A DNA stretch of 41,356 bases, taken from Bacteroidales bacterium (GTDB taxonomy: Bacteria > Bacteroidota > Bacteroidia > Bacteroidales > UBA1715). Within the stretch, counting starts at the first letter, position 1. Every line of letters starts with the position of its first letter. The notes below the pieces were generated by a model. The model saw only the letters and a program-made list of their open reading frames with translations. It made no database searches and was not told the DNA's origin. The position numbers and the translations under genes were made by a program. Below, piece by piece: positions 28,701-40,597 of this stretch. Location of the stretch: the NCBI GenBank assembly GCA_024409235.1, contig JAKSUA010000023.1:1-41356 (forward strand). The letters are read 5' to 3'.

Positions 28701-29091
28701 CTTCCCACGTAAAATCTTTTGCTGCACGATAACCAGAGTAATCGTATGAATAGTAGTCGTCGTAACCTTCAGGGAATTCGCTATATCCTTTTATAAGAAT
28801 GTAGGCAGAGTAGAATGCTGTTTGTCCAAATTTTACGTGGTCACCACAGTCGAACCAACCACCGGTAAGGTCAACGCTGCCATCAGCATCTTTGTCGAAG
28901 TCATAACCAACATCATGGTCCATAACCAACCAGTTTGGAACAGAGTGGTCTTTCGCACTACTTCGTTGTGCACCATAAAAACGGGTTGTCATCCATAGTG
29001 CTTTTTGGTAGTCTCCAGTAGTAAATGTTTGGCCAAATATTTGTAACGCTGAAGAGATTGCTACTACGGTTAAAAGAATATATTTTTTCAT
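25702..29091 (-). CDS. Multidomain secreted GH9 endoglucanase
   Basis: A 1129-residue secreted cellulase. Order: signal peptide (1-21, ending IFGQ); GH9 catalytic domain (about 22-487) with DxxD nucleophile region WFDCGDHVKFGQ, the NHPHHR histidine motif and acid residue in ITEGGIDYNAGLVSALGYI; Ig-like/PKD-like domains (about 490-720) with paired TYKWYKG/TYTWYKD repeats; a jelly-roll-like region (about 725-880); a fibronectin III domain (about 894-978); and a C-terminal pair of GWNLISFY/GWNLLGYP repeats. The end is TITIK, with no typical type IX secretion CTD signature, so it may be surface-held by the GWNL repeats or exported by another route. Endo-acting cellulose or glucan hydrolysis is expected, together with the lichenase at 15583. 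Confidence 0.92.
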   Translation of the reverse strand: MKKYILLTVVAISSALQIFGQTFTTGDYQKALWMTTRFYGAQRSSAKDHSVPNWLVMDHDVGYDFDKDADGSVDLTGGWFDCGDHVKFGQTAFYSAYILIKGYSEFPEGYDDYYSYDYSGYRAAKDFTWEGKKGKPNGIPDILDEVRAACEWFIKCTPNASTFYSQVGDGNADHQQWVTSVKMAKSSKSQGGQSDGSRVVTKNPADGSMPSFCAATLAIMSTAYAPFDPDFAKKCLDHAKYALAYAKSNLGKTAGAGSFYPANARMYDDYVCANAELYWATNDATYKTEALKYKGEVKDHNWQFGYNNNDDIAAYNLAKLGDNDGLALLEMFIKNIYVGKADGSGIYKSSDNWGTLRYNGNAAFIMALYNKLKGVTTYDKYIYANIDFILGNNSSKLSYIVGFVPSSGSYTYFNHPHHRNVYLDDSNPAGKNLNIPTRNVQFGFLGGGKGYDPTTLKNAGTADYEITEGGIDYNAGLVSALGYIVSKKAPINPNKFGHPSPDLGPEQTLCGTGKATINAVVDLTALESGEKITYKWYKGETLLSANNGKTSITVTEAGTYTCVVEETAKDKWTTKGSVVVSATLPDVTIGKDVALCKETSATFSTDVEGDGLTYTWYKDNKAISGATTNSYTAYTAGVYKLTISAAGCASKSASATVTSNLPEVINDTICSAGKAELSVKTAGDYEWYSVAEGGTALATGTTYAPNITKTTTYYVQDAGSMSFTAGPKTTDFNGKTAVNWGEISAKFTAGTAMQIIGIDVYIQSAYSTGNQTFTATIEGDAKTTATTTANVSGTGWLTLSFEKNPITLTKAGNYQLNIKPSNAAVGFYENGVNYSSFQGDQSIIKFTGATNGQASNFAFPALCNWKISSGSSCARTPVFAIIDPNADCGGDTEAPTAPGTITVSNITETSATISWVKSTDNTAVTGYNVFVNGTKVGTATTNTYELTKLTANTEYTITVSAFDEAENVSDLSAEKSFSTLQATTKQTIALTVGWNLISFYALPEDASVANVFGTNISNVSIIKNDDGFYKPGKAAELQSLTTLKYGEAYLVKVDNAFTLSTEGVAPTSTTIALKAGWNLLGYPKATEATASTVLSKYTELKDLKSAQTKLTPGKGYYIKMSSDATITIK

Positions 29092-31693: not shown

Positions 31694-32362
31694 TTACTTT
31701 ATTCGGTATCTGTATAGGCAGCCTTGGTATTTGTCGAATGATTCACATAACTCTTTTATTTCATCATCAGAGAATTTGTTTGCGTATGCTGACAACAGAT
31801 ACTTAACCTTAGCCTCTGTTTTCTGATTACTGCGTTTAAGATTGAGACGAGGACTTGCATCCTGAATTTCACGAGCAGACTCATACTCGAGCAATACAGG
31901 ATAATCATCGATGGTTCCCAATGCATCATGTGCCCTGAATAGTTCAGCACATGCCCAAGGACCTTCTAACCGTTCGCCAGTTTCGGCATTATGGAGTTCC
32001 CTGATAAGTATTCCTCCGAAATAGCTATCGTTGGATAGGACTGGTTTTATAGACAATTTCTTTTTGTCATTGACAATCCTTTCCACCTTTGTCTCACTTT
32101 TGAAACTTAAATCGATTCCTCCGAAATCATTAACATACCATTGCATTGATTCGCAATTTCGTGGATGAGTAATGATGTCCTTGTGGTGTTTGTTGTAGAA
32201 GTAGAACTCTACATCTGCAAATAGGAAAATATCTTCACCTTTCCTAATTGCCACGTTCTTGAATAGCATTCCTGCTATCATGTCAAAACGTTTAGAGAGG
32301 TAATCGGTATCTGCTTCGGATGTAAGACAAAGTAGGCACTTTAATGACTCCAATATATTCAT
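31694..32362 (-). CDS. Conserved hypothetical protein, possible DNA-repair-like
   Basis: A 222-residue soluble protein. Notable segments are DIFLFADVEFYFYNKHHKDIITHPR, MQWYVNDFGGIDLSFKSE, YFGGILIRELHN and GPWACAELF. The order 'FYFY...H-D..THPR...W..N..GGIDL.F.S...GGILIR' is familiar to me from unannotated Bacteroidetes proteins and is vaguely reminiscent of 3-methyladenine glycosylases (GGxLIR...GP), but I cannot assign a function. It sits between the nuclease gene and the broken Nudix gene on the same strand, probably in one operon downstream of the MUG-type glycosylase. Confidence 0.6.
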   Translation of the reverse strand: MNILESLKCLLCLTSEADTDYLSKRFDMIAGMLFKNVAIRKGEDIFLFADVEFYFYNKHHKDIITHPRNCESMQWYVNDFGGIDLSFKSETKVERIVNDKKKLSIKPVLSNDSYFGGILIRELHNAETGERLEGPWACAELFRAHDALGTIDDYPVLLEYESAREIQDASPRLNLKRSNQKTEAKVKYLLSAYANKFSDDEIKELCESFDKYQGCLYRYRIK

Positions 32363-32389
32363 TGAATTTCTTATCTTTATATTATGATG

Positions 32390-33607
32390 TTACAAGTTCA
32401 TTCCTTTTGTCGCTTCTCTAACTCTTTCTATTTCAGAAACGATAGAATTGACGAATTTGACAGGATGTGCTTCTAGTTCTTGCCAAAAAGAATCATCCAA
32501 TTGCCTATTCATCCAATCCCAACTTATGTAGCCTTCAGTTTCTTGCTTACTATAAACATCTGATAGTTTGGATAAGTGTTTTTGTGCTATCGTCTTTTCT
32601 GGGTCTTTCCAGATTCCATTATACAAGTTTCGTTTGTTGTCACTTTCTATTGCCCACCAGCTTTTCTTCCAATCAGAAATCTCAATTTCAAGATCAAAGT
32701 AGTCGTAGCTGAATGAGTATGCTTTAATTTTATAGCCTTTCTTTTCAAGTGCCTTTACAATCTTTGTCTCACACATTGATTTAATTCGGCTATTTGTGGC
32801 GTTTGACAATAGATCTTCCAATTTGTAAACTTCCTCCCACGTGTCAAGAAGTTCCTTAAGGCTATTTAATTGAAGCTTTTCCATCATTTTGATTTCTAAT
32901 TGATTTTCAATTATTCTATCTTCTTTACGTAATCCAAACTCCTGTTTTAGATAATCTGTATATTGAATGATCGCAGATGACAATAAAGGTTCAGACTTTA
33001 CATTATCATATGTGATAATTTCTTCAAGCCAAGGTATGATGTCATCTTTGAAATTCATAGTAATGAATCTGCCATCACTTTTGCTTGTGACTCGAAGAAA
33101 CTTTTTAGCTTCGTCTGTTAAACTGTTATCCGTTATCTCTTTCGAACCATCACCGGTTAGATAAATGACATAAATTTTGTTTTTGGGAATACTGCAACTT
33201 AGAGCATATTTGACATATCGTCCAATTTGTTCTTCCATATCTTTGGCACCCCAAATTTTATTTTCAACAATGATAGCATACTTGTTCTTCTCCTTAATGA
33301 ATAAATCTATACGATTTTCCTCATTAGAGAGTATAGGGGTGTTGATTTCAATATCAATATTGGCACAACATTTTGATTGCATCATAGATACGAACGATCG
33401 TAACAAAGGATAGTTGCCATTGCTTGAATATTGAAGCAACCCTCGAAGGATTCTTGAATTAGCATTTTCATTAGCATGAAGTTCACTAATTATATTCATG
33501 CTATACGGCAGTTCATCCTTCTTGGTGTTATATAGCTCGTACAATTCTCTTGCTATTTTCAAGAGAACATCTACGTTATTTACGTTATCTGTTGGAATTG
33601 TAATCAT
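32390..33607 (-). CDS. PD-(D/E)xK nuclease superfamily protein
   Basis: A 405-residue protein. The nuclease core is ENRIDLFIKEKNKYAIIVENKIWGAKDMEEQIGRYVKYA, giving D...ExK (E-N-K) plus the downstream QxxxY motif, as in the PDDEXK_4 group often found in phage-defence islands. The N-terminal part has the group's usual NIISELHANENANSRILRGLLQ helix, and the C-terminal half is an alpha/beta domain of unknown role. The ATG at 33607 is chosen because it lies 9 bp after the stop of the 55-residue gene; a start nine codons earlier would overlap that gene. Confidence 0.85.
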   Translation of the reverse strand: MITIPTDNVNNVDVLLKIARELYELYNTKKDELPYSMNIISELHANENANSRILRGLLQYSSNGNYPLLRSFVSMMQSKCCANIDIEINTPILSNEENRIDLFIKEKNKYAIIVENKIWGAKDMEEQIGRYVKYALSCSIPKNKIYVIYLTGDGSKEITDNSLTDEAKKFLRVTSKSDGRFITMNFKDDIIPWLEEIITYDNVKSEPLLSSAIIQYTDYLKQEFGLRKEDRIIENQLEIKMMEKLQLNSLKELLDTWEEVYKLEDLLSNATNSRIKSMCETKIVKALEKKGYKIKAYSFSYDYFDLEIEISDWKKSWWAIESDNKRNLYNGIWKDPEKTIAQKHLSKLSDVYSKQETEGYISWDWMNRQLDDSFWQELEAHPVKFVNSIVSEIERVREATKGMNL

Positions 33608-33615
33608 TGGGTGAT

Positions 33616-33783
33616 TCAGTTTAATACAAAACAATCTAAGACTATCATCCCATCTGTGCCAGCTTGACCACTTTCAACCATGGATATAGCGGTCATTTCA
33701 GCCTCATGAGGAGATGATGCAGATACCTGCAGTATAACTTCTTCTCCAAACTCTGTTGTTATCTGTACATCGTAGAGTTCCAT
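33616..33783 (-). CDS. 55-residue protein between glycosylase and nuclease genes
   Basis: A short frame reads MELYDVQITTEFGEEVILQV then SASSPHEAEMTAISMVESG and ends VLDCFVLN. The pattern (strand, strand, helix, strand) looks like a real small alpha/beta domain. It overlaps the end of the glycosylase gene by 25 bp and stops 8 bp before the nuclease ATG, so it fills the gap in the operon neatly. No family recognised. Confidence 0.55.
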   Translation of the reverse strand: MELYDVQITTEFGEEVILQVSASSPHEAEMTAISMVESGQAGTDGMIVLDCFVLN

Positions 33784-34313
33784 GACTCAAGAGTTTCTTT
33801 GACTTGTTTATACAGTTCAATCTTTACTTCAGAGGTTATAGCATTGCCATGAGGGAAGGGTATATTGAAGAAAATAGTATCACATCCATCGACCAATTTA
33901 CCAAGATTACCATGCTTAACACCCCCTTTTCCCATGTACTCTTTGACAAAATGCTTTATCACTTTGCTATGGAGTATAACAACGACTTTAGGCTCATACT
34001 TTATAATGGTTTGCATTAGATCAATGCAATTTCTTACAGTAGGTTTAACCACTGCGCTATTGCTCTCTGCAAGCCCATTGACGAGGTCTGTTACACCATA
34101 TTCCCAATGGTTTGCATTGACTCTTGAAGAACCAAAAACTTGCTCATCCGCCACATTCATATTCACAGGGACGGTAATTAAACCGGAATCGTATAATTGA
34201 TTCCAAAATGCAGGATTAGTCGAAAAGTAATGACCTTTCTTGCTTGACGTGTTCGCAGGATTTAACCCAACAAACAAAATGTCTAATCCATGTCTTACAT
34301 ATGGATATATCAT
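33759..34313 (-). CDS. MUG/TDG-type uracil-DNA glycosylase
   Basis: A 184-residue protein of the uracil-DNA glycosylase superfamily, G:T/U mismatch-specific (MUG) branch. The first motif is LFVGLNPANTSSKKGHYFSTNPAFWNQL, where GLNP and the later F-W are diagnostic. The catalytic Asn lies in GLNPANT, and the second motif corresponds to IPFPHGNA near the C-terminus. A TTG six codons upstream is possible, but the ATG at 34313, 18 bp after the preceding stop, is preferred. It may excise damaged bases or, given its neighbours, process foreign DNA. Confidence 0.82.
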   Translation of the reverse strand: MIYPYVRHGLDILFVGLNPANTSSKKGHYFSTNPAFWNQLYDSGLITVPVNMNVADEQVFGSSRVNANHWEYGVTDLVNGLAESNSAVVKPTVRNCIDLMQTIIKYEPKVVVILHSKVIKHFVKEYMGKGGVKHGNLGKLVDGCDTIFFNIPFPHGNAITSEVKIELYKQVKETLESWNSTMYR

Positions 34314-34331
34314 AATTACTAAACTATACAA

Positions 34332-34610
34332 TTAAATTAGAAAATTGTCGTATGCCCAATCAATACCTTCCTCGAATGGATATTTGAATGAATTTAGCAA
34401 AACGAGTTTTTCTTCTTCGCTAAATTCATTTGTTTCACATTCACAAAATAGAGATTGGGCATGATTCTCAATTGCTTCATCTTCTAGCCCCATTGCTTCA
34501 ACAAGCTTCATATTGCTAATAAGATTAAGATTCTCTATTAGCCATTCTGCTCCTTGTGTGAATCCTTCTTCAAATTCAAGAACAGCATCTTGATGATTGT
34601 GTGAGTCCAC
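34332..34610 (-). CDS. Small acidic protein of unknown function, possibly 5'-frameshifted
   Basis: The frame from the GTG at 34610 gives 92 acidic residues (LEFEEGFTQGAEWLIENLNLI; FSEEEKLVLLNSFKYPFEEGIDWAYDN). The reading continues upstream in frame as IHDAAKTFAFNAIVDSHNHQ, while an ATG at 34680 (MDDEIKNKK) leads into it only after a one-base shift in an A-rich tract. Either the GTG is used or the gene is a recent frameshift. The 'F-x-x-GAEW-x-I-x-x-L' pattern resembles small phage-associated Bacteroidetes proteins. It heads the operon that follows the 41-bp repeat at 34716. Confidence 0.55.
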   Translation of the reverse strand: MDSHNHQDAVLEFEEGFTQGAEWLIENLNLISNMKLVEAMGLEDEAIENHAQSLFCECETNEFSEEEKLVLLNSFKYPFEEGIDWAYDNFLI

Positions 34611-34715
34611 AATTGCATTAAATGCGAAAGTCTTGGCCGCATCATGTATTTTGTTTTTTATTTTTTATTTCATCATCCATACCAATAATCTTTTATATCA
34701 TATTTACCAATTACG

Positions 34716-34756
34716 GTGCAAAGTTAGAATAGGGTAGTCTCAAATCATGGGACAAG
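34716..34756 (-). repeat. 41-bp direct repeat, copy 1, with promoter-like box
   Basis: This copy is identical to 40557-40597 at 39 of 41 positions, in the same orientation. On the minus strand it contains TAACTTTG (a TAnnTTTG -7 box); both mismatches fall near or in that box, yet the box consensus is kept. It precedes the 92-residue gene and the mug-nuclease operon. Confidence 0.9.
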
Positions 34757-34772: not shown

Positions 34773-36770
34773 TTATAGGTCTTTTTTGTATGTTATATCT
34801 TTCCAGTGTATCGAAAATGCAGTCTCAGCTGCATCATCCAGATATTCTTGCAGAAATTTAAACGGGAACGGATATGTCATCAATTCATTCCAACGTCCAA
34901 AACCAAATTTTAGCATCCCACAGATTTCAAAGATATGCTGTTCTATGAGCTCGGGGTTCTCTTTGTGAAGTATGAAAATACGACGAGCACGAGGCATCTT
35001 GTCCATCTTGGTTTTAGGAGTAATCTTCATAGATTCACTATTGGTTCCTGAAATATAGGAATATGAAGAGTAGGGCTCTCCATCAATACCCTCGCTTTTC
35101 CACAGATGGAACCCTATGTATCCACGAAGATAGTCATGAGCAACTTTCTTACGCTTGAACATTGCTACAGTCTCGCCCTCGTTGGTCACTTGACTATATG
35201 CTTCATCAATTAGGTTTACGTCCAAAATTGGTATTTCATCTGTATCGACGATAAAATAGACATTTCCATTTTTGACTAATGCCATATAATCTCTTGCTCC
35301 ACGTATCTTATCATATTCAGAATACTTTAGATTTTGAGATATGAAATTCTCAAAGTCTTCCCCTTGATTATCCAGAGATAATCCATATTGTTTAATTTCA
35401 ATAGTTCCATGGTCGTCAATCTCCATAGACGCACCATGAACATTTCCCTGATTGATTTTGTATCTGATTGCATTCCATCCAATAAGCATATCTGCCAAAG
35501 GCTTTGGCATTACTCTTTTAGCTAAACTATCCTTTACGATGAGTTCAATGAGTATTCTTCTTACTCTGAAGGTATCAAGCAAATCCAGTTTTTCATCTCC
35601 ATAATATGTGATATGCTGGAGAGCATTACCGTTGTTTAACATTCTTACCATGGACTGAGAATACAGAGTTGCCTCAGATTCTTCTTCTTTTGGTTCGCAT
35701 AGTTTGATTATTATGTCGTCCGGAGTTGGCTTTTTGGGAAAAACAATATGCCCACTCATAATTTCTAGAGCTTCATTCTTGAAGTTCTTGATGACCGACT
35801 TAGATCCACTTGTTTGAAACGGATCTTCAAATGAAATGCTTCTTTCGGCAAGATACTCCTGTATAAGTGCCAAGATTCCATCTTTGGTTTTACATTCATC
35901 ATAATGGATGACCTGGGAATCTCTGAAATTTACCTCTATTATTCCTTTGAACGCATCATTAACAGATTCTATTACTTGCCAGATAACATACAGTTTTCCG
36001 TGAGAATAATCTTCTACATTAAACGGCCAATAAGGAACTAGGTTTTTATTGTCATTGAAATTCTTCTTTTGAATGAAAAGCTTCTTAAGGTCGTATTCGC
36101 CATTTTTCACGCTTTTAATGATTATCGGCTTTACGGCTTGACCTGACCAATAATCACCATCAAAATCTTTGGCAATCTGAAATGCACATGTTCTGTGCTT
36201 TAACAACTCTTTTTCGTTGAAAGGATTAGAAAATGATGTCGTCCGAGCCGTCAGATTCATGTATTCATTAACCTCTATTTTTAAGCATACAAGTTCTTTG
36301 CGACTCTTGCGAGCCCCAAAATTCTTGTCATCGCAAACAAGTAACGAACCATCGTTATACATCATGTTGCTATTCTTTTTCTTTCCCAGAGAATTTATAG
36401 CCAAAGATGCAATGATTCTTTGCCGCACTTTATCTTCATACTTTTCGAGGGTGTTATTCCAAGCTTTAACGTCGTTATATGCTCTAAGACTGTTAAGAAC
36501 TTCATCCTCTTTTCCTTTTGTGGTTAATATGAAGAACTGAACAGATGGGAAATGTTGAGCACCCCATCTGTCTCTGATTCCTGAGACAGATATGAAAGGG
36601 ACATCTCCAAATTGTTCATAAGCCAGGTTCTTATGTTCTGGGTCAGTACTATAATAAGATACGATGGAGTATTTTGCAAAGAACTTGTCTTTATCCCATG
36701 AGACTTCGATTCTATTCGTTGTGATAGGAAGACTCTTTATGTAATTATCATCTAATACTATCCTTGCCAT
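34773..36770 (-). CDS. ddmE: Argonaute-like partner of the helicase-nuclease (DdmE-like)
   Basis: A 665-residue soluble protein. Its ATG shares one base with the stop of the helicase-nuclease gene (TAATG), so the two are translated together. Size, gene order and partner match DdmE, the catalytically inactive prokaryotic Argonaute of the DdmDE plasmid-elimination system. Internal hints are a beta-rich C-terminal half (YMALVKNGNVYFIVDTDEIP; RRIFILHKENPELIEQHIFEICGML) and an ending like the PIWI C-terminus (ELMTYPFPFKFLQEYLDDAA, compare T-x-P-x-P-hydrophobic-A in Argonautes). I cannot see a DEDX catalytic tetrad, as expected for DdmE. The alternative is the related pPIWI-RE group. Identification rests mainly on context. 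Confidence 0.6.
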   Translation of the reverse strand: MARIVLDDNYIKSLPITTNRIEVSWDKDKFFAKYSIVSYYSTDPEHKNLAYEQFGDVPFISVSGIRDRWGAQHFPSVQFFILTTKGKEDEVLNSLRAYNDVKAWNNTLEKYEDKVRQRIIASLAINSLGKKKNSNMMYNDGSLLVCDDKNFGARKSRKELVCLKIEVNEYMNLTARTTSFSNPFNEKELLKHRTCAFQIAKDFDGDYWSGQAVKPIIIKSVKNGEYDLKKLFIQKKNFNDNKNLVPYWPFNVEDYSHGKLYVIWQVIESVNDAFKGIIEVNFRDSQVIHYDECKTKDGILALIQEYLAERSISFEDPFQTSGSKSVIKNFKNEALEIMSGHIVFPKKPTPDDIIIKLCEPKEEESEATLYSQSMVRMLNNGNALQHITYYGDEKLDLLDTFRVRRILIELIVKDSLAKRVMPKPLADMLIGWNAIRYKINQGNVHGASMEIDDHGTIEIKQYGLSLDNQGEDFENFISQNLKYSEYDKIRGARDYMALVKNGNVYFIVDTDEIPILDVNLIDEAYSQVTNEGETVAMFKRKKVAHDYLRGYIGFHLWKSEGIDGEPYSSYSYISGTNSESMKITPKTKMDKMPRARRIFILHKENPELIEQHIFEICGMLKFGFGRWNELMTYPFPFKFLQEYLDDAAETAFSIHWKDITYKKDL

Positions 36771-39700
36771 TATCCAATAATTTTTTTAAGTGTATCAATT
36801 GCACTTTGGATGATGTTGCCATCATTGTCAATTACTCCATGAATCTCAGTTACTGCATCCATGGACTCACCAGGAAGCTGCAGCATATTAACTGTAATGA
36901 GCTGACATCCCAATCTTTCACGTTTAATCTTGCGTTTGTCTTTAGTAGCCAGTTCACCTTGTTTGTCATTGTGATCAACAAGTGGATTCATGTTTTTTAC
37001 ATCAAATGCTATCTTATACGTTCCATCAGGATTACAGATTACAAAGTCTGCCAACTCATAGTCGCGACCTTCAAGGTGTTTGAAATCCTCCTCTTGGCAA
37101 TTAGTGTATTCTAACACTATTGCCTTGAAAGCTTCTTCGCCTATTTCACCAGCGTAATCTGTCTTCAATATCTCTGGATGAAGAATTAAACCACCTGGCT
37201 TCCAATCTGTAGCATAACCATTTGCTTCAAAGTGTTTTCGAATCACATCATTCTTCATCAACACATCCAGTCTTACAGTGGATGGTGAGATTGGTTGAGT
37301 ATATGGTCTACCCTTTCCCTGGGGGCAAATGTCATTACTACGGTTTGGGTCAAAAGAGAAGAAGTACTCGTTGTTCTCATTTCTTTGCCAATTGCCATAG
37401 CATTTGCAGATGAAAGTCAAGTATTTATCCTCTTCAACTAACTCGCTATAATCACTGATGACAGGTTTTTTAATGATAGTTTGCTTGTAGCTTTGATTCA
37501 TTAACTGGTTTATCTGTACATTACGAGGTACAGATGTGCCTTCCTCAACATCGTCATCGTAATCCTCTTCTCTATCTGGATGTGGAGTATACCGGAGAGC
37601 AATACTGCGCATTCTATCGAGTTGCCTTTTTGCATAATTGGCATTGTTACATCTGACAATTTCTTCGGGATTAGCTGCAGATGGAAGTTCTTTCGGCATT
37701 GAAAGGATGTATTCAGCGAGGGTACGGAACTCTTTTGTGAGAGACTTCTCTAAGTTGTCTCTGTCAAAATACTTAGCCATATCCATATCAAACAGAATAT
37801 ATGTAGTATGTGGCTTGTTCCTTGTACGGCACAATCGACCAACAGCTTGTTCAACAACAGTCTGTGCCCATGCTGCCTTGTCTTTTGCTATGCCAGGATT
37901 GTTCTTGTCGCCAAACCAGAAATTGTTCGACAGAGCTCTACATAGCCATGAAGCAACTTCGTTCTTTGAAAGACAACCACGTTCGTATAGCATCATCAGG
38001 GAGAGCATGGCATTATATAGGCTTTTCTCGAACGTTGACTCATTGCCATCCTCGCTCATCATCAGATATGCACTTGGACATTGAACATAAACGGCATCCC
38101 AGTCTTTCTTCAGTTTTTCATCATTTGTTTCCCAATTGTCGCCTTTGACAAAATCAAGCCCCTCGGGAATCTCATACTGCATATTTGCACCAGCTTTGAA
38201 GCTTGCGTACGCAGATACCAGCATTATTTTAGAATCCTTGCTTTCGCTAAGTTCTTTGAGAATAGATCCTTCAACCTCTTCCCAATCCTTGGAGATTCTT
38301 ATATGGTCATTTGTCCAATCTGTGGGAAGTTCATCTTCAAACGGAGTATTCTGGTACTTGTACGAGCCATCTATCAGACAGCTTAAAACGTTTGTCTGTA
38401 AAGGATCACCGTTCCTGTTTTGGAAGAAGATCATACTTCTTATGTCTTCATGGTTAATAAACCAATGATAGGCTTCAATAAACTGGAACAGTCGATAAAG
38501 TGGGAAGGATATACTCTCTCCTTCCTTTTTTGATTTTATGAGTTCTCTTCGAGTCAACTTGAACCAACGCTCATCAAGTCCTTCTTCGCGTGCCTCTTTA
38601 GAGAACATCATTTTATACTTTTCAGGCAGGAATGTTTTTTCATCCCTGCTATCTTCGAAAGTATAGTGTTCAAGTGCTTTTATTTCTATTTGATGTTCTA
38701 CTGGGTATGTATGGGAAACGAGATTGTCAAACGTCTTTCTGTCATCCTCAGACAAAGCGTGAACATTATTACCGACACTCTCTTTGAGGTATTCTATGTC
38801 GCAATTACTGATTACAGACGAGCTTGAAGCCGTGGCTGAACACAGCACTACAGAAGTGCCCTCTGTTCTCAATAAATCGAAAAGAATCTTCTCAGGTGTA
38901 GTTGAAATCTCTCGACAGGAAAGACGTACTCGATGCTGGTTGTCTCGCTCGTCCACTTCCTCCTGATATAACTGTACACCTTGTGAATAAACAGAGTAAT
39001 CTGGCAGTTTTAGCTTTTCTTCTCCCTTATTGATAATCAGATTCTTTCTGTTTGTCATAAATTCAAAGAGCTGCTGCTCAAATTGATATTCCGAGTTTGT
39101 CTCAAAACGTGAGAAAAGAGTATGTATTTCTCTTTCACGCGTTGGATAACCTAAGTAGTGATTCTTAGGCAACTTGTTTGCAGACAGTTCATCCTCTGTT
39201 CTTTCGAAGTCTTCCACACTTTTCTGGAATGCCTCATTGACAACTTTGCTTAACTGTGCTTTAATGGCAGTGGTGTTACCTACAATCAATGACAGGAACT
39301 TGTCCATTGGCACAACGTAGTCAAACATTCGTTTTAGTTCGACATCATCTTCGGCATGATGTAATTTGAACTGTTTCTTTCCTTTGTTGTAGCATATAAA
39401 GGAATGTGATTTGTCGTTGGATTTGGAAACATTGAGTTTCAGAGCAGGACCAGAGAAGAATACTCCTCGTCGATAGTCCTCAAGGTCTTCTATGTCACCC
39501 AAGAAAATATTCTTGTATGGCTCTGTATTTCCTAAGGTCTTTTCCCAATTCGTTGAGATGATGTTATTTGCCTTGTTCAATGAATCATCGAGTAAACTGC
39601 CATAATATTCATCTGAAACATGGTCAGCCATATCTATCAGCTGTTTATACTGTAGATAACCATTATAGCCCTTTGAAAACCTATTCCTTCCTCCTGAACT

Positions 39701-40534
39701 TTCAATTGCTTGATCGATGATCGCATTGCGCATTGCAATGGCAGCTTGGTCAGACTCATCTAATAGAATAAGAGTCCTTCTCCCTTTTTCTGTAATGTCA
39801 TGAAGACTGATTTTCTCACCCAGAATAGGGTCTATTCCGTACATTGCCTTATGTACGGTCATGAGGAGCACTTTTTTCTTTTTATAGTCAACCTGTGGAT
39901 AGACTTCAGCCAAAGATGGAAAATCTCGTAGGACTTTCCCAATGTCAAGGCGACTTCCTTTTTTCTGGCGGTTGTATATCTTTTTATATAACTCGAAGAA
40001 GTTTCTTACGTCTCTTCTGAGTTTCGTTTCTCCTTCTGTTATCTGAGTTTGAATAAAATCGTTATTGTTGTTTCCCTGAGTAAGAATCAAGTTTTTTACA
40101 CCTTCATAGGTCTTTTTGATTTTACTGCAGGCATATCTCAATTCATTATTGCTTCCTTCCGTATTCATCTCACCGATTCTGTGGTCAATCTGATCAATGA
40201 ATTTACGAAAAGAATCTGTATCAATAGCGTTCTTGATTACCTCTGCATTATTTTCAATAACCAGCTTTTGGTCATCTTTGATTACACTATCTGGCGAATC
40301 AATGAACCTGTCAATTTCGCGATTCATGCCTTCTACCAACTTATTTTGAACGCAAAGAATAACTATACGGTCAAAATGCTTAGGATAGTATTCACATGTC
40401 AGTTTTCCAATCGTATAAGACTTGCCTCCACCTGTTGCTATGTCGCAAATGTGGAGTCCCGGCGTGACATATTCCTTGAAGATCGCTTCAACGTGTTCAC
40501 TAAGTTGTTCTTTATATGATTTAGACATAATCAT
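36770..40534 (-). CDS. ddmD: SF2 helicase with C-terminal PD-(D/E)xK nuclease (DdmD-like)
   Basis: A 1254-residue protein. Helicase motifs in order: Walker A IATGGGKSY (32-40), motif II LLDESDQAA (DESD 259-262), motif III CSATAS (SATA 566-569), motif V SAYASFKAGANMQ, and motif VI QAVGRLCR (896-903). The C-terminal nuclease has D1163 in ELADFVI and D1178-x-K1180 in AFDVKNMNP. One chain combining an SF2 motor with this nuclease, followed by an Argonaute-like protein, is the layout of DdmDE, which in Vibrio cholerae destroys small multicopy plasmids. The promoter repeat at 40557 lies 23 bp before the start. A second in-frame ATG is at 40528. Confidence 0.72.
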   Translation of the reverse strand: MIMSKSYKEQLSEHVEAIFKEYVTPGLHICDIATGGGKSYTIGKLTCEYYPKHFDRIVILCVQNKLVEGMNREIDRFIDSPDSVIKDDQKLVIENNAEVIKNAIDTDSFRKFIDQIDHRIGEMNTEGSNNELRYACSKIKKTYEGVKNLILTQGNNNNDFIQTQITEGETKLRRDVRNFFELYKKIYNRQKKGSRLDIGKVLRDFPSLAEVYPQVDYKKKKVLLMTVHKAMYGIDPILGEKISLHDITEKGRRTLILLDESDQAAIAMRNAIIDQAIESSGGRNRFSKGYNGYLQYKQLIDMADHVSDEYYGSLLDDSLNKANNIISTNWEKTLGNTEPYKNIFLGDIEDLEDYRRGVFFSGPALKLNVSKSNDKSHSFICYNKGKKQFKLHHAEDDVELKRMFDYVVPMDKFLSLIVGNTTAIKAQLSKVVNEAFQKSVEDFERTEDELSANKLPKNHYLGYPTREREIHTLFSRFETNSEYQFEQQLFEFMTNRKNLIINKGEEKLKLPDYSVYSQGVQLYQEEVDERDNQHRVRLSCREISTTPEKILFDLLRTEGTSVVLCSATASSSSVISNCDIEYLKESVGNNVHALSEDDRKTFDNLVSHTYPVEHQIEIKALEHYTFEDSRDEKTFLPEKYKMMFSKEAREEGLDERWFKLTRRELIKSKKEGESISFPLYRLFQFIEAYHWFINHEDIRSMIFFQNRNGDPLQTNVLSCLIDGSYKYQNTPFEDELPTDWTNDHIRISKDWEEVEGSILKELSESKDSKIMLVSAYASFKAGANMQYEIPEGLDFVKGDNWETNDEKLKKDWDAVYVQCPSAYLMMSEDGNESTFEKSLYNAMLSLMMLYERGCLSKNEVASWLCRALSNNFWFGDKNNPGIAKDKAAWAQTVVEQAVGRLCRTRNKPHTTYILFDMDMAKYFDRDNLEKSLTKEFRTLAEYILSMPKELPSAANPEEIVRCNNANYAKRQLDRMRSIALRYTPHPDREEDYDDDVEEGTSVPRNVQINQLMNQSYKQTIIKKPVISDYSELVEEDKYLTFICKCYGNWQRNENNEYFFSFDPNRSNDICPQGKGRPYTQPISPSTVRLDVLMKNDVIRKHFEANGYATDWKPGGLILHPEILKTDYAGEIGEEAFKAIVLEYTNCQEEDFKHLEGRDYELADFVICNPDGTYKIAFDVKNMNPLVDHNDKQGELATKDKRKIKRERLGCQLITVNMLQLPGESMDAVTEIHGVIDNDGNIIQSAIDTLKKIIG

Positions 40535-40556
40535 AATAGAGTTTACAGAAATTTTT

Positions 40557-40597
40557 GTGCAAAGGTAAAATAGGGTAGTCTCAAATCATGGGACAAG
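40557..40597 (-). repeat. 41-bp direct repeat, copy 2, at the helicase-nuclease promoter
   Basis: The partner of 34716-34756. On the minus strand it carries TACCTTTG (a TAnnTTTG -7 box), giving a predicted short 5' leader before the start at 40534. The interval between the two copies contains only the two-gene module. Confidence 0.9.

Follow-up and report, generated by a model that had tools for sequence, protein, structure and literature searches.

The 41,356-nucleotide stretch of Bacteroidales DNA analysed here (the window) carries, on its minus strand, a gene for a DdmD-like superfamily 2 (SF2) helicase-nuclease of 1254 codons, followed by a gene of 665 codons for a partner protein predicted to adopt the Argonaute fold of DdmE (Table 1). 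Both open reading frames (ORFs) begin with ATG, and at their junction, GGATAATGGCA, the TAA stop of the helicase gene and the ATG start of the partner gene have one A in common; the coordinates, lengths and one-base overlap agree with those given in an earlier note on this DNA. By sequence, profile and predicted fold, the pair is a genuine remote DdmDE system.

The two genes were compared across 13 complete two-gene loci, namely six close ones (the window, L004, L005, L016, L017 and L018) and seven distant ones (L019, L020 and L021, plus the plasmid-borne L030 from Nostoc, L031 from Lactobacillus, L032 from Persicobacter and L033 from Cetobacterium); a locus without a relative (L022), one holding a remnant without a helicase (L023), a genome with its partner gene on two contigs (G889) and a Lactobacillus delbrueckii record (H6) stand outside these counts. 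Because the genes are adjacent and full-length in the five close relatives, which are 53-87% identical to the window, the pair is not a chance arrangement. In 13/13 loci the helicase gene comes first and the partner gene second, and the two either overlap or are separated by no more than 15 bases. Both genes are under purifying selection: ratios of nonsynonymous to synonymous divergence (dN/dS, NG86) between the window and L004 are 0.036 for the helicase (dN 0.072, dS 2.0) and 0.049 for the partner (dN 0.097, dS 2.0), values that are rough given a dS of about 2, near saturation, while the L017 and L018 helicases give 0.082; ratios were obtained in three of six comparisons, dS not being computable in the remaining three. 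Divergence of the helicase and divergence of the partner are correlated (Mantel correlation 0.975, with 0/10000 permutations as high), a value to which little importance is attached, since it is driven mainly by two deep clades.

Helicase motifs I, II, III, V and VI, named in the earlier note, are all present, with GGGKS at residues 35-39 and the motif V region at residues 775-787, and the residues at the core of motifs I, II, III and VI are invariant (Table 1). The three nuclease residues D1163, D1178 and K1180 are likewise present and, beyond the counts in Table 1, invariant in 55/55 sequences of an alignment numbered from residue 470; the active-site region lies within the part of the predicted fold that aligns with the C-terminus of DdmD. 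The PADLOC DdmD model matches the helicase at 2e-23, a profile built on the helicase finds DdmD in the PDB at 5e-30, and a PDB search with the sequence itself matches DdmD entries only. The protein is not a DinG-family helicase. Residues 470-1254 are predicted to fold as DdmD does. A single chain thus joins an SF2 helicase to a C-terminal PD-(D/E)xK nuclease and is homologous to DdmD; judged on its sequence, the protein is related to DdmD and retains its helicase and nuclease motifs intact, and it is very likely the helicase-nuclease of a remote DdmDE.

The partner was recognised by a different route. No PADLOC, Pfam or NCBIfam model matched it at E up to 1, its single sequence found nothing in the PDB, and its profile returned from the PDB one chance match (NSF, E 0.76). 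When its AlphaFold2 model was examined, in contrast, six DdmE entries ranked top in both fold comparisons, the alignment being nearly full-length (543-579 of 665 residues in the five best entries), and profile-profile comparison joined the partner to DdmE-type partners at E 4e-22. The sequence routes having failed, identity was settled by the predicted structure together with this bridging profile, which point to a long-Argonaute fold homologous to that of DdmE. The structure-prediction check suggested in the earlier note came out in favour of DdmDE for the partner and for residues 470-1254 of the helicase.

Several partner residues are nearly invariant. Y370, R376, Q385 and H386 are kept in 76/77 alignment rows (one gap) and E409 and K413 in 77/77; across the 13 loci, Q385 is kept in 12, E409, K413, P634, K638 and E642 in all 13, and P636 in 11. 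In their spacing and their place in the chain, Q385 and K413 resemble the glutamine and lysine of the Argonaute guide 5'-phosphate pocket, and the PIWI domain likely ends with the C-terminal PFPFKFLQE. The slicer tetrad seems to be disrupted: the presumed first slicer position, in the strand RYKI (residues 436-439), has no acid, and the presumed last, residue 641, is Q in 66/77 and H in 3/77, both positions being assigned from sequence. Slicing by the partner is therefore improbable, and cutting would fall to the helicase-nuclease.

Table 1. Positions of the gene pair, its conserved motifs and the bracketing repeat in the window.
Feature	Position	Strand	Evidence or conservation
First gene: SF2 helicase of 1254 aa, DdmD-like, with a PD-(D/E)xK nuclease at its C-terminus	36770..40534	-	PADLOC, PDB sequence search, profile, predicted fold
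Second gene: DdmE-like protein of 665 aa, Argonaute fold predicted; start codon and helicase stop share one base	34773..36770	-	AlphaFold2 model, fold comparisons, profile-profile comparison
Helicase motif I TGGGKS, residues 34-39	40418..40435	-	T34 to K38 invariant 30/30; aligned in 12/13 loci, gap in L031
Helicase motif II DESD, residues 259-262	39749..39760	-	Invariant 30/30
Helicase motif III SAT, residues 566-568	38831..38839	-	Invariant 30/30; SAT in 7/7 distant loci
Helicase motif VI QAVGRLCR, residues 896-903	37826..37849	-	Q896, A897, G899, R900, R903 invariant 30/30
Nuclease active site D1163, D1178-V-K1180	36995..37048	-	Invariant 30/30; D and DxK aligned in 13/13 loci
Partner candidate guide 5'-end pocket Y370, R376, Q385, H386, E409, K413	35532..35663	-	Conservation; pocket assignment inferred
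Partner C-terminal signature PFPFKFLQE, residues 634-642	34845..34871	-	P634, P636, K638, E642 in 77/77
48-bp direct repeat, upstream copy	40550..40597		90% identical to 34709-34756
48-bp direct repeat, downstream copy	34709..34756		90% identical to 40550-40597

The reading preferred here, with a probability of about 0.82, is that the pair is a remote DdmDE system acting against plasmids. In characterised DdmDE, as far as the available text of its description goes, an Argonaute holding a single-stranded DNA guide finds the plasmid and calls in the helicase-nuclease, until then an autoinhibited dimer, which moves on the non-target strand as a helicase and cuts (review PMC12409362). A second text, PMC12904381, was set aside as a source because the names DdmD and DdmE are interchanged in one of its passages. 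By analogy, the window's partner, as a predicted DdmE-type Argonaute, would likely carry a short single-stranded DNA guide, pair with plasmid DNA and recruit the helicase-nuclease, freeing it from an autoinhibited dimer; the helicase would translocate 5'-to-3' along the displaced non-target strand, and plasmid DNA would be nicked or degraded. The likeness to the Vibrio cholerae system extends to the order of the helicase-nuclease and Argonaute-fold genes, to the helicase motifs and nuclease position, and to DdmD and DdmE being the top fold matches.

Several points weigh against this reading. Identity to the solved proteins within the fold alignments is 13-19% (for V. cholerae, 13-14% to DdmE and 18-19% to DdmD; for Lactobacillus casei DdmDE, 14-16%), and the partner, at 665 residues, compares with 712-713 in solved DdmE chains. 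The fold prediction for the helicase spans residues 470-1254, without the N-terminal 469, and for the partner there is no direct DdmE match by sequence or profile, the link being predicted structure and a bridging profile. The PADLOC DdmE model leaves the window partner unrecognised; among the three distant loci tested (L019, L020 and L021), it matches only the L021 partner, weakly (7.5e-4), and hits of the PADLOC DdmD model are confined to L020 and L021, with none in L019. D509, probably an old catalytic position, is kept in 75/77 partner rows, and whether the PIWI domain is catalytically active was judged from sequence patterns rather than from coordinates.

The closest comparison outside DdmDE is ApsAB, a related antiplasmid family of E. 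coli that, according to the available text of PMC11096173, likewise pairs a helicase-nuclease of one family with DdmD with an Argonaute-like protein; it is a sister system. That the pair is closer to ApsAB, or lies between ApsAB and DdmDE, so that plasmids would still be lost and guides be bound differently, is improbable. The partner's conserved set Y370...R376...Q385...K413 loosely recalls the ApsB motif Y-x3-K...QG...K, yet that motif is not conserved here: L or M stands four residues past Y370 in 73/77 rows, neither QG of the window protein is conserved (Q in at most 16/77), and the pattern with free spacing occurs in 27/77 rows at scattered places. The partner model, moreover, aligns with DdmE nearly end to end, whereas ApsB is described in that text as resembling DdmE poorly (RMSD 30.6) and as having no typical PIWI and PAZ domains (PMC11096173); ApsAB is set apart here by this published description and by its motif, not by comparison with ApsAB sequences. 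Somewhat less improbable, though still unlikely, is that the parts are those of DdmDE and the main targets are phages or integrative elements, or the outcome is cell arrest, rather than the loss of small plasmids. The pair does adjoin other defence-like genes, such as the defence candidate PDC-S26 at 32390-33634, but DdmDE and ApsAB, the relatives described in print, are directed at plasmids (PMC12409362; PMC11096173, both as far as their available text goes), and the same portion of the latter records ApsAB as inactive against eight phages.

The earlier note had offered two readings, a distant DdmDE or an intermediate between DdmDE and pPIWI-RE systems; the former is borne out by sequence, profile and predicted fold, and the latter is disfavoured. 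In pPIWI-RE, too, a PIWI protein, an SF2 helicase and a restriction-type nuclease work together, but the available text of PMC3702460 describes an operon of three genes, REase first, then DinG and then pPIWI-RE, with a DinG-type helicase, whereas the window holds a two-gene pair in which one chain is both nuclease and helicase. The pPIWI-RE domain models match neither protein of the pair, and no Pfam family matches the partner at E up to 1. The separate nuclease gene, third gene downstream of the pair (32390-33634), is better matched by PDC-S26 (3e-24) and PF14281 (4e-17) than by the pPIWI-RE-associated REase (E 0.034, sub-threshold); BLAST at E 1e-3 gave no match to it in nine loci outside the window's own genome, including the non-relative L022. 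By the three-gene definition, the helicase family and the missing domain, a pPIWI-RE system or an intermediate toward one was rejected, and its probability is put very low.

Not one of the five close relatives has a neighbouring gene in common with the window (window ORFs right of position 29000, compared by BLAST at E 1e-3; one small antisense ORF at the end of the partner gene was set aside), which fits horizontal movement; the flanks of L017 and L018 are common to each other. The pair is bracketed by 48-bp direct repeats that are perfect over 29 bases, AATAGGGTAGTCTCAAATCATGGGACAAG. The window genome holds three copies (E up to 0.01), the third being 89% identical over 64 bases on contig C13 (12428-12491; L023 9629-9692), where it adjoins a remnant of a second partner gene corresponding to residues 558-663 at 89% identity, within a 180-residue minus-strand ORF (L023 9610-10152) with an unrelated N-terminus and no helicase alongside. 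Contig C13 also carries a second PDC-S26 gene. The sense strand of the repeat contains TAnCTTTG, which resembles the Bacteroidota -7 box, and the repeat may act as a promoter common to its copies, mark the boundary of a cassette, or do both. It was rejected as a feature general to the family, since a repeat stands at both gene ends in 1/13 loci only (2.5 kb searched on each side, or the 822 bases available upstream in the window); L033 has three repeats of 25-96 bases, with downstream copies 1.3-2.1 kb away, and L017 a borderline repeat of 20 bases (E 0.047). Among 13 further genomes from the window's family, one gave a 21-base partial match to the repeat and the others none, and viral contigs held no exact copy of it.

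L017 and L018 are mosaic. Between L017 (5947-11723) and L018 (7787-13551), the helicases are 93% identical and the partners 69%, and identity at fourfold sites, counted as sums over windows, is 246/360 in the helicase, 43/124 in the partner, and 52/106 and 48/97 in the two upstream genes; the corresponding values for the window and L004 are 155/355 and 81/182. The unevenness, seen in one pair of loci, points to exchange of the helicase segment. A Bacteroidales subtype of DdmDE, with a guide-anchoring pocket of its own (Y370, R376, Q385, H386, K413), helicase and Argonaute segments that recombine separately, and mobility as a repeat-bounded cassette, is a tentative and, as a whole, doubtful proposal; if true, plasmid recognition could be re-tuned through exchange of parts.

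Among 393 sampled genomes of the order, the helicase gave eight matches: four full-length at 60% identity or more (the window's included), three distant and one false; the match in G367 (E 5e-4, one internal stop) was rejected, its locus (L022) showing no helicase or partner BLAST match and two ORFs tested there being TonB and SusD. The partner occurs in 1/14 genomes of the window's family and in 3/149 and 1/149 genomes of the families of G212 and G150, respectively. The helicase profile found only the window's genome among 295 genomes of the class, as did the PADLOC DdmD model among 395 genomes of the phylum (0/14 control genomes). Public data yielded 377 partner proteins (E 0.01 or better) and 233 helicase proteins (0.001 or better), with named relatives in Prevotella, Paludibacteraceae, Bacteroidaceae and Bacteroidales records and some from genomes of ruminant stomachs (water buffalo, goat), the named records pointing to a Bacteroidales as the probable host; in G889 the partner is split into two pieces on two contigs. 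Viral contigs held no partner relative and phages no helicase match. Among the papers listed that join DdmD or DdmDE to Bacteroidota-related terms, none describes this clade as far as title and opening of the abstract show, a result that does not extend to the tree of ApsA and DdmD in PMC11096173. If the pair is active, plasmid destruction guided by DNA would extend to a Bacteroidales clade whose relatives in public data number in the hundreds, and because the Argonaute half is missed by the models tried, surveys relying on those models will miss or half-annotate the system. The pair would also be a remote point of comparison for guide-holding DdmE residues, Q385, E409, K413, K638 and E642 surviving across phyla.

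Among plasmids, the window helicase matched one Nostoc record, and that of its relative L021 five records, including the Lactobacillus delbrueckii one. The DdmDE-type pairs L030, L031, L032 and L033, from four genera, lie on plasmids typed as non-mobilizable, L032 beside parA/parB; the system may serve the plasmids that carry it as a defence against competing plasmids.

As to the neighbouring genes, the minus-strand region downstream of the pair (31694-34610) holds, besides the PDC-S26 candidate, a UDG/Mug-like glycosylase gene (33759-34331) and a weak Mem_03 match (31694-32362). At the contig end (41057-41356, minus strand), an antitoxin-like gene of XRE type, of which the 3' end is present, precedes a frame-broken stretch that resembles the C-terminus of HipA. 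Elsewhere, in L019 (7823-16636), a type I restriction hsdR gene comes immediately after the DdmDE-type pair, as if the pair lay inside a restriction operon. Upstream of the pair in L017 (11739-13777) and L018 (5799-7765) lie two closely spaced genes on the same strand, one of which is an HNH gene by Pfam in both loci; the other, scanned in L018 only, reads there as fused methyltransferase and HIT domains.
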